64,000 nucleotides of DNA from Candidatus Accumulibacter regalis. Lineage in GTDB: Bacteria > Pseudomonadota > Gammaproteobacteria > Burkholderiales > Rhodocyclaceae. The number at the start of each line of letters is the position of its first letter. Positions within the stretch are counted from its first letter, which is position 1. Positions 34,765 to 37,484 of the stretch are shown in pieces. The translations under genes were made by a program, and so were the position numbers. The notes beneath the pieces were generated by a model. It had not been told where the DNA came from and did not search any database. It saw only the letters and a list, made by a program, of their open reading frames with translations. The stretch covers positions 1 to 64,000 of the forward strand of contig JEMY01000017.1 of the NCBI GenBank assembly GCA_000585075.1. The letters run 5' to 3'.

Positions 34765-35874
34765 TTACTCGCTCTGCTGTCGGAGCGTTATCCGTGCTCG
34801 CCAGGCGCGCATGCTTTTGTGGGCAATTTGACGAACGAGCAAGCCAGGCGGCAGGCGCAGCCATTGGTGGCGGAGCGAGCCCAGGCGCGCAGCGGTGCGT
34901 CGCGAAATACCCGCTGGCTGATCCGGAATTCGCGGCAGGGTGCAGCGTGGGAAGACCCAGTCAAACAGTCGAATCACTGCTGCCGGCGGGGTCGCCAATG
35001 GCAGATCCTCGGGAACCGGCGTTGTCAGCCAGGCGCGACAGTAACGCAGCGCGTACCACAACGGACGCTCGACCCGGTGCTGCACGGCGCGTGCCGCGAG
35101 CGCCTGCCAATCGTCGTGCGAATGCACATGGGCGCGAAGCAGTCCGTCGATATCGACCAGGTCGCGCAGATGTGCCTGCAAGTCGGAATCCTGGAACAGA
35201 TGAACCACCGCATGCAGGATCTGATCGAGCGGGTGCAGGACCAGGAAGCGCTCGCCGGGGAGCGCTTGCAGGTCGGCAAACAGCAGCGTCGTGTCCGGCT
35301 TCAGTCGACCGGTCACCGGGGTGATCGTGTGGTGCAGGTCGACTTCGAGCGGATGTCCGGGAACACGCAGCGGCGGCAGTTCGTGGCTCCATTGGCGATA
35401 GTAGCGCTCGGTATAGGCGTCGATTTCTTCGAACTCCCAGCCCGCATTGCGCAGCGCCGCCTCGGCCGGGTCGAGGTCGCTGTGAGCGACCATCAGGTCG
35501 ACGTCGCTGGGCAGGCGGCCGCGTGCCAGGTCAAGCTTCTGCAGCATGTAGGCGGCCCCCTTGAGGACGACCACCGGCAGTTCCGGGGGCAGTGCCTTGG
35601 CCAGGGCCGTCAACTCCATGCGCAGCAGGTGTCCGCGATGCGCCGAATAGACCGTCGCCGAGCGCAGGTGGCCGAGGACGCACTCGGGCACCGCCGAGCG
35701 AAGTTCGTCGTGCGGCTGGATGCGCTGCGCGAGGACGCCAAGCAGTCGTGCCTGGCGAGCAAGACGAATCGTCTTGTCCCATTCCGGTAGGCCAATACTG
35801 AGCACGTGGTGCGGGTCGGCGAGCAACGCCAGCAGCGTATGCACGCAGGGGTCGGCGGGCCCCAGAGCGATCAT
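34765..35874 (-). CDS. Nucleotidyltransferase-fold protein of the HprK-related/PqqD cassette
   Basis: 369 residues of the 'uncharacterised nucleotidyltransferase' family (NTP_transf_5). The fold's motifs are VVLKGAA (102-108) and SDVDLMV (123-129, with Asp124 and Asp126 as likely metal ligands); a third acidic residue is probable in LEVDLHH. Family members occur beside PqqD-like and HPr-kinase-like proteins, including in some phosphorylated lasso peptide clusters. Its ATG overlaps the kinase stop by ATGA, so it is the last gene of a coupled three-gene cassette. The reaction is unknown; nucleotidyl or phosphoryl transfer to a peptide or small molecule is inference. Confidence 0.85.
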   Translation of the reverse strand: MIALGPADPCVHTLLALLADPHHVLSIGLPEWDKTIRLARQARLLGVLAQRIQPHDELRSAVPECVLGHLRSATVYSAHRGHLLRMELTALAKALPPELPVVVLKGAAYMLQKLDLARGRLPSDVDLMVAHSDLDPAEAALRNAGWEFEEIDAYTERYYRQWSHELPPLRVPGHPLEVDLHHTITPVTGRLKPDTTLLFADLQALPGERFLVLHPLDQILHAVVHLFQDSDLQAHLRDLVDIDGLLRAHVHSHDDWQALAARAVQHRVERPLWYALRYCRAWLTTPVPEDLPLATPPAAVIRLFDWVFPRCTLPRIPDQPAGISRRTAARLGSLRHQWLRLPPGLLVRQIAHKSMRAWRARITLRQQSE

Positions 35875-36845
35875 GCGGCCACCGCATCGCTGGTCGACTC
35901 GGCGATCATCGTGCGTATCGCTTCGATGGCTTCGTCAAGCCTGCTGTACTCCAGCGCAAAGGCCGGACAGGCCGCGACGACTTCAGCGACGGCAGCGAAG
36001 GAGATCTGGCCGAGAAGGGCGTAGTTGAAGCTGTTGAACGCCACGCGCGCGAAAGCTTCTTCGCCGGGCAGACGTCGGATGTTCAGCGTGGCGCCGTCGC
36101 GAAAGCTTGGGAAGAGCAGCAGGCACGGTCGAGCGGGCCGCTGTCGCGCGTCCACGCTGGCCGCCAGCGGGGCCAGATGCGCGACGTCACCTTTGCGCGT
36201 TCCCTTGTAGAGAGGGCCAAGAATCGCGTTATCGGCGAAATCACGGATCACGTCGACCGCCCGGTTCTTCAGCGCCACCGGCTTGAGCATCGGCCACAGC
36301 TTGCCGGTGCGCGGGCAGAGTACGCCAAACTCGTCGGACAGCATGCGAAACCCGCGCAGCATCATCGCCGCGGTCAGCGTGCTCTTGCCGGCACCTGGCG
36401 GCGCGGCCATGATCACCGCGCGATCGCCCAGGGCCAGGGCGCCGGCGTGGAGCAGTACGTGCTGGTTGAAGCGTTGCGCAAAGCACCAGTTCACGCCCCA
36501 TTCAAAGTGCGGCAGCGCCTGCGCCTTGGGGAAGGGGTCAAAAGGCTGAATGCCGTCGATCAGGAAACGGGATTGCGGTCTGAGGAAGGAACGCAGTCCC
36601 TGGCCGCCGCAGACTTCGGTATGGAAATCCGCGAAGGGGGGGGCGTCGGCCACTGCAAACGCGCCATAGACCTGCTGGAAATCACGCACGAAGACGCCGA
36701 GGCGTGAGCGAACCCTGACGATTGCGGCGCCGTAGTCGAGCGCCAGAGAGGCCGTTGAAAAACGCTTTTCGAGCAGGGTAAGGGGCAGATCTCTGATGCG
36801 GGTGGGCTGTGTGTGCTGCGGTTCCTGCGGTTGCTGGCTGGTCAT
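35871..36845 (-). CDS. HprK-related kinase (HPr-rel-A type)
   Basis: 324 residues. The C-terminal half resembles the HPr kinase/phosphorylase core: a P-loop APPGAGKST (Lys154), His133 (LLHAGA) and MLSDEFGVL (Asp171, Glu172) as the Walker B-like site. The N-terminal 110 residues are not the usual HprK domain. I recognise it as the 'HprK-related kinase A' group that co-occurs with a PqqD-like protein and a nucleotidyltransferase. It is unlikely to act on PTS HPr, as no PTS gene is near. ATGA overlaps at both ends couple it to its neighbours. Confidence 0.85.
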   Translation of the reverse strand: MTSQQPQEPQHTQPTRIRDLPLTLLEKRFSTASLALDYGAAIVRVRSRLGVFVRDFQQVYGAFAVADAPPFADFHTEVCGGQGLRSFLRPQSRFLIDGIQPFDPFPKAQALPHFEWGVNWCFAQRFNQHVLLHAGALALGDRAVIMAAPPGAGKSTLTAAMMLRGFRMLSDEFGVLCPRTGKLWPMLKPVALKNRAVDVIRDFADNAILGPLYKGTRKGDVAHLAPLAASVDARQRPARPCLLLFPSFRDGATLNIRRLPGEEAFARVAFNSFNYALLGQISFAAVAEVVAACPAFALEYSRLDEAIEAIRTMIAESTSDAVAA

Positions 36846-37093
36846 CCAGCAAGCATGCCCATCTCCTGAAGAGAACGCAACACCTGTTGCATTTCCGGGC
36901 TGCCGGGGTCTACATCGAGCTCTTCGCGAAGCAGTTCGAGCGCACGGCTTTCTGCTATTGCATCACCATTACCCGCTTCAGCAAACACTTCGAAAATGAC
37001 CGCGGCCGCCGGGGTGAGAATATGGGTATGCCAATTCGCCGTATCGAATACGACGGCACCGTCGCCCAACTGGCGGTAGAGCAGGCGCGTCAT
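36842..37093 (-). CDS. PqqD-like protein (possible RiPP recognition element)
   Basis: 83 residues of the PqqD-like winged-helix family: an N-terminal beta hairpin (AVVFDTANWHTHILTP), then helices (AAAVIFEVFAEA and PEMQQVLRSLQEMGML). PqqD-type domains bind leader peptides in RiPP pathways. It is the first gene of the three-gene cassette and lies 37 bp after the small Tat-leader protein gene, the natural candidate for its ligand. Its stop overlaps the kinase start (ATGA). The ribosome binding site is weak (GGG only), which suggests coupling to the upstream gene. Confidence 0.8.
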   Translation of the reverse strand: MTRLLYRQLGDGAVVFDTANWHTHILTPAAAVIFEVFAEAGNGDAIAESRALELLREELDVDPGSPEMQQVLRSLQEMGMLAG

Positions 37094-37130
37094 CGACCCG
37101 GTTTGTTGATGCAGAAAATCGTCGGGTTGC

Positions 37131-37484
37131 TCAGCGAATCAGGTTTTGGCCGTCGGCGAACGGTCCGCCCGGGTGGACCGAGTTCCAACATGAAGCGGTA
37201 GCCACCGGTTTGCCGTCGACGAATTGCAGATAGTTTCCTGCCGGAGGGTTGTCGTTCGGACCGGCGGGCTGAAAACTCCGTACCCACTGGTCGTGGCTGG
37301 TCGCCGGGATCGGGTTCGCTGGAGTTTGAGTGCCCGGCGGGAAACCCCGGGCAACGCACGCGTTCAGGCTGCTGTTCGCGACTTCTGCGCCGGCAGGAAG
37401 GACGAAAATTGCAGGTACCGCAGCCGCACTCTTGAGCAAGCGCCGCCGCCGTAGCTTGGTTCGTTCCGATTCGGTCATTGACAT
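37131..37484 (-). CDS. Small Tat-leader protein, candidate substrate of the HprK/PqqD cassette
   Basis: 117 residues. The N-terminus is a twin-arginine-like leader: charged residues 4-15, RRRRLLK (12-18), then a hydrophobic stretch to about Ala36. The mature part opens with NSSLNAC (Cys43), has a Gly/Pro/Asn-rich middle (47-83) and ends with a more ordered stretch holding a second Cys (Cys99). I do not recognise a family. The start at 37484 is chosen because AAGGAAA lies 6 bp upstream; the longer frame has no such site. It directly precedes the PqqD-like gene on the same strand. A substrate role is inference from position and leader. Confidence 0.7.
   Translation of the reverse strand: MSMTESERTKLRRRRLLKSAAAVPAIFVLPAGAEVANSSLNACVARGFPPGTQTPANPIPATSHDQWVRSFQPAGPNDNPPAGNYLQFVDGKPVATASCWNSVHPGGPFADGQNLIR

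Follow-up and report, generated by a model that had tools for sequence, protein, structure and literature searches.

The closest known kinds of system to the gene cassette described here are the linear polyphosphorylated peptides (LPP) of the Bacillota and the lasso peptides paeninodin and pseudomycoidin. In the available part of their description, LPP clusters combine a discrete RRE, an HprK-like kinase and an NTP transferase with a precursor whose N-terminus is conserved and whose C-terminus is very variable; LppK adds one to four phosphates to this precursor, at core Ser3, and deletion of lppN caused no detectable change (PMC13381572). The same part describes a leader of the YxxPxVL type, an SpI peptidase dedicated to the system and an MsbA-like exporter, as well as clusters in polysaccharide surroundings (PMC13381572). 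In the lasso peptides, as far as the accessible sections of the source go, the HprK-like kinases PadeK (paeninodin) and PsmK act on the C-terminal Ser and are accompanied by a B1 RRE, while pseudomycoidin also carries a nucleotidyltransferase gene and PsmN adds hexoses to its phospho-Ser (PMC9266682).

The cassette lies in a window of 64,000 nucleotides (the whole stretch of DNA that was analysed) from Candidatus Accumulibacter regalis, and its genes and motifs are listed in Table 1. An earlier note on this DNA had described four genes on one strand joined by three ATGA overlaps. The common strand stands, and two of the overlaps are present (PqqD/kinase at 36842-36845 and kinase/transferase at 35871-35874); the third is absent because the small gene lies 37 bases away from the PqqD gene. 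The likeness to the NCBIfam HPr-rel-A association that had been pointed out is borne out by the kinase (TIGR04352) and the PqqD protein (TIGR04353), both of which exceed curated cut-offs. The small protein is covered by none of the models tested, with no NCBIfam model (10 proteins) and no Pfam model (9 proteins) above cut-off.

Table 1. Features of the cassette in the window, with the evidence for each.
Feature	Position	Strand	Evidence
Small protein (substrate candidate), 117 aa	37131..37484	-	ORF; homologues upstream of kinase elsewhere
Conserved leader/Tat-like signal, about residues 1-36 (RR 13-14, P24, L29)	37377..37484	-	Column make-up
NSSLNAC patch, mature N-terminus, residues 37-43 (Ser39, Cys43)	37356..37376	-	S39 and C43 in at least 90% of 32 aligned
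SCWNS motif, residues 98-102, candidate acceptor Ser102	37179..37193	-	S102 in 32/32 and 56/57
PqqD-family RRE protein, 83 aa	36842..37093	-	TIGR04353, 39.4 bits (cut-off 35)
HprK-related kinase A, 324 aa	35871..36845	-	TIGR04352, 354.7 bits (cut-off 200)
PF14907 nucleotidyltransferase family protein, 369 aa	34765..35874	-	NTP_transf_5, 168.3 bits (cut-off 31.2)

The cassette is flanked by glnD on one side and by a gene for an error-prone DNA polymerase on the other, and the four flanking genes tested (those of RimO, the polymerase, GlnD and methionyl aminopeptidase) are housekeeping genes. The closest named loci are from Accumulibacter, with a top kinase identity of 87% in Ca. Accumulibacter adiacens. 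At 11/11 of the loci L003-L013 glnD adjoins the cassette, showing that its genomic place is kept in Accumulibacter, and the four flanking products have no match at the other 26 loci of L003-L039. Median identity between the window and 10 Accumulibacter loci falls from 74% for the kinase to 67% for the transferase, 65% for the leader, 61% for the PqqD protein and 45% for the mature part of the small protein. No recurrent fifth gene emerged: judged from coordinates and by eye, which is not rigorous, the 15 flank families among the matches listed look like antisense cassette frames or local synteny.

The cassette has the RRE, kinase and transferase of LPP and a small protein of comparable design, and Ser phosphorylation, documented for the LPP precursor, is proposed here too (compared with the available part of PMC13381572). 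The Tat-like leader sets it apart from LPP, as do its hosts, which are seen mainly in Proteobacteria. Membership of the LPP family was rejected, as none of its three further marks was found: TIGR02228, for the archaeal-type SpI signal peptidase, matches nothing in the window's whole genome at E<=0.01; the 5 genome matches to PF00664, for an MsbA-like exporter, include none on the window's contig (C17); and the leader consensus, compared by eye, lacks the LPP motif YxxPxVLxHQxIxFETxxS. None of the terms Tat, twin-arginine, proteobacteria and Pseudomonadota occurs as a whole word in the main text of PMC13381572. Paeninodin and pseudomycoidin share with the cassette the pairing of kinase and RRE, and pseudomycoidin shares the nucleotidyltransferase gene too. 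Unlike lasso peptides, the putative substrate here carries a Tat-like signal, and its mature part spans about 13-246 residues (median 152 among the small proteins of the loci examined), and the 6 genome matches to PF00733, the Asn synthase family of the lasso macrolactam cyclase, include none on contig C17.

The linkage of small protein and kinase was computed over 168 loci, comprising 37 named loci, 30 from a family search, 100 further regions and the window's own copy; L002 and L070 (own second copy, with a weaker kinase) were left out. The family-search rows over the cut-off supplied the 30 obtained as loci and 60 more of about 100, and all 40 class-search rows over the cut-off besides the window's own were taken. 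Clustering at 95% kinase identity reduces the 168 loci to 151. Iterated HMMs run on the six-frame ORFs matched a kinase at 168 loci, a transferase at 167, a small protein at 164 and a PqqD protein at 162. A small protein stands upstream of the kinase on the same strand at 165/168 loci (164 by HMM and L080 by eye). By ORF limits this position holds at 160 loci; at L037, L038, L106 and L129 the small protein stops before the kinase match, and the open frame of the kinase extends back across it. The three loci lacking a small protein are L030 and L101, cut by contig ends, and L152, which is full-length. Where both matches exist, the stops of the PqqD gene and the small gene are no more than 430 bases apart at 152/160 loci and 490 to 1364 bases apart at the remaining 8, and L145, L146, L160 and L170, which have no PqqD match, show by eye a short divergent ORF at the expected place. 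With 15 of 20 held-out loci added (see below), the small protein proves to be a regular companion of the cassette, being neither absent nor unrelated beside most copies, and the cassette as first reported largely holds and is partly confirmed.

Two loci have unusual arrangements. L014 (4182-6942) has an extra small-protein match, with small protein and PqqD gene seemingly duplicated around a gap of unknown bases, which is probably an assembly artefact. At L152 (1-3361) pilus-like genes lie upstream of the kinase, which adjoins a gene resembling a pilus tip adhesin and a pilin-like ORF with a frame ending in GDSCWRR; there is no PqqD match.

The leader is uniform among the aligned relatives, in which the mature part is highly variable. 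Its consensus is SRRRLLKGAAAAAPVILTLASGPALA, from an alignment that took in 147 of 149 proteins (L049 and L080 excluded). The twin-arginine-like character first noticed in the window's protein is general: the two Arg columns stand at 99% and 100% in the 147 aligned relatives, followed by P at 77% and L at 75% (of 145), and the last residue is A or G in 98% (of 141). The window's protein alone scores 13.2 bits with Pfam TAT_signal, under the cut-off of 22.7. Run on 19,050 ORFs, an HMM of the leader only gave 178 matches at E<=10, of which one is not a small protein; since this HMM was built from the same proteins, the count shows specificity and is not independent evidence. The window's genome has one tatC gene, and a search of that genome with the window-type alignment found no second substrate, the only other match having E=0.4. 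In a mirror-tree comparison of leader and PqqD protein the signal is weak, with a partial correlation of 0.12 given kinase distance.

For the PqqD protein AlphaFold predicts an RRE-like fold, with a pLDDT of 90.9 and the order strand-strand-strand-helix-helix-helix, and lasso RREs rank first in a structural search with this model. The Pfam PqqD model gave no report for it at E<=10, so that TIGR04353 and the predicted fold are the grounds for calling it PqqD. In the kinase, H133, GxGKST at 151-156 and D171-E172 are invariant in 34/34 aligned kinases and the top PDB profile matches are HPr kinases; by alignment, the HprK-type catalytic residues are kept.

At L037 (3556-5487) and L038 (2436-4373) the PqqD and kinase matches share one open frame, which suggests natural RRE-kinase fusions. 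The window's genome itself holds, at L070 (7504-9862, G000:C13), a diverged PqqD-HprK-like fusion with a transferase-like gene; the fusion kinase scores 85.8 bits, under the TIGR04352 cut-off, and no Tat substrate was seen beside it among the ORFs listed.

Because linkage, a uniform Tat-like leader, an RRE-like fold and HprK-type residues come together, a peptide- or protein-modifying system with Tat export is the best reading of the cassette, and the earlier interpretation is partly supported. In the mechanism that we infer, from binding, site and chemistry to the order of steps, export and disulfide, the PqqD-like RRE would grip the small protein's conserved leader, itself also the putative Tat signal. 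The HprK-like kinase would then phosphorylate a Ser in a short S-x3-S motif (in the window, Ser102 in SCWNS), the PF14907 transferase would add a nucleotide- or sugar-derived group onto that phosphate, and the modified product would be exported by Tat. Outside the cytoplasm, a Cys43-Cys99 disulfide would probably tie both ends together. We put the probability of binding, phosphorylation, extension and export as a whole at roughly 60%. By analogy with the known systems, the kinase most likely acts on Ser102 and the transferase most likely builds upon the phosphate, although the lack of a detectable effect of lppN deletion in LPP makes the role of the transferase here uncertain. A tentative extension, to which we give only about one chance in a few, is that the RRE serves as a proofreading chaperone for Tat, holding the twin-arginine leader until kinase and transferase are done with the motif Ser and so gating export by modification; if true, protein-sized substrates would have a Tat pathway that is gated by modification.

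The cassette looks like a proteobacterial cousin of the recently described systems for peptide phosphorylation, and its route of export is unusual; what is new compared with the known kinds is the protein-sized, Tat-type substrates, mainly in Proteobacteria. TIGR04352 scores above its cut-off in 128/297 genomes sampled from the window's family, 41/369 from its class and 61/398 from its phylum, the window's own genome included each time. A widespread cassette thereby gains a testable substrate, a candidate Ser and an export route. Should the proposed mechanism be true, HprK-like peptide phosphorylation would reach exported proteobacterial proteins and RRE recognition would be tied to Tat. A literature search limited to a PMC collection found no paper on the HPr-rel-A cassette, and twin-arginine does not occur among the matches listed.

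The features of the mature part to which attention had been drawn, the NSSLNAC patch and a second Cys (Cys99), are both present in the small protein. The C-terminal SCWNS motif, absent from the earlier note, is more conserved than the patch. The alignment of 32 proteins in Table 1 (A1) omits L013, L021, L032, L036 and L038 from the 36 small proteins of L003-L039. The kinase of the window belongs to a clade of 58 kinases (support 0.999), 57 of them with a small protein, and among these 57 Ser102 is kept in 56, C43 in 52, D65 in 49, C99 in 45 and S98 in 43; L108, the sole exception at Ser102, has GCYTSI nearby, aligned elsewhere. The pattern [ST][CASG]xxS[ILVFM] occurs in the last 45 residues of 46/57 proteins inside the clade (500 shuffles: mean 2.4, max 8) and of 2/90 outside it (200 shuffles: mean 3.65), while S-x3-S occurs within the first 26 mature residues of 89/90 outside (500 shuffles: mean 14.6, max 26); these patterns were picked after the first set had been seen, so that the shuffles are not independent and only the held-out set is. 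When proteins are labelled by motif only, the N-terminal motif stands alone in 87/90 outside and the C-terminal one alone in 40/57 inside, with both in 8 and neither in 12. On a kinase tree that includes held-out rows (171 tips, 141 labelled from motifs alone, 30 unlabelled), motif position changes 2 times, against at least 34 in 100 label shuffles. The 74-aa substrate of L094 stops about 13 residues past the signal and still keeps CNASL.

These data bear on the site that had been proposed earlier, Ser38/Ser39. The same enzymes could modify this mature N-terminus, with SCWNS as a structural element, for instance as the disulfide partner of Cys43. The retention of Ser39 and Cys43 in the 32 aligned proteins and in the window's clade fits such a site, as do the S-x3-S near the mature N-terminus of type N substrates and the phosphorylation of LPP at core Ser3 (available part of PMC13381572). 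The highest conservation is nevertheless that of Ser102, the S-x3-S of the other substrates sits elsewhere, and the motif Ser persists in five clade members that have neither Cys. Ser38/39 is thus probably not the main target as far as sequences indicate, and we regard this alternative as unlikely; modification at the S-x3-S motif, Ser102 in the window, is preferred.

The held-out set comprised 20 of the 61 genomes over the cut-off in the phylum search, hand-picked for spread, and the HMMs were fixed beforehand. A protein with a Tat-like leader stands upstream of the kinase in 15/20, including L184, L185 and L189, which have weak small-protein HMM matches (E 0.002-0.03) and were counted by place and by eye; PqqD matches were found in 13/20 and transferase matches in 18/20 (in L175 a fragment only). 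By eye, [ST]-C-x-x-S-[ILF] is present close to the C-terminus in 11/15 of the substrates and C-x-x-S-x-x-x-S after the signal in 3/15, and L190 was placed in neither group. Four of these loci (L184, L185, L187 and L189), alphaproteobacterium-like by inferred lineage, have C-type substrates outside the main C clade. No small protein adjoins the kinase in L179, L180, L182, L186 and L188; the kinase of L182 adjoins nucleotide-sugar enzymes. At L180 (2565-5872) the kinase lies in an XrtA/PEP-CTERM locus with a TIGR03087 glycosyltransferase and a TIGR03019 FemAB protein and no PqqD or Tat-protein match.

Such loci would suit a kinase and transferase that act on another target, a polysaccharide or a different protein, with the Tat protein as a co-transcribed passenger: 5/20 held-out kinases lack the neighbour, two of these standing among the XrtA/PEP-CTERM and nucleotide-sugar genes just named, and L152, the full-length exception of the first set, adjoins pilus genes. 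A passenger is hardly expected, however, to be linked at 165/168 loci or to have a motif whose position tracks the kinase tree, and we think this account improbable, preferring the small protein as the substrate.

The two Cys of the small protein tend to be kept together. In the clade (n=57), 45 members have both, 7 have C43 only, 5 have neither and 0 have C99 without C43 (Fisher p 1.9e-4, kinship ignored). A lipoprotein reading of Cys43 was rejected, as the residues preceding the Cys, inspected by eye, do not form a lipobox. Ser and Cys conserved side by side could also point to kinase-driven dehydration, in which phospho-Ser is eliminated and the dehydroalanine caught by Cys to give a thioether protein, as with the kinase-lyase dehydration of lanthipeptide synthetases (accessible part of PMC10604976), but no lyase or cyclase match was found in the four cassette proteins with NCBIfam and Pfam, the Ser is kept in some members that have neither Cys, and this route is very improbable.

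The structure model of the small protein is poor (pLDDT 58.3). Many type N substrates (L062, L064, L097 and others) contain an SPGYWK-like stretch, and in those tested neither Pfam nor NCBIfam scores above cut-off. Its pattern PG[YF][WYFG] occurs in 49/90 proteins outside the window's clade versus 0/57 inside.
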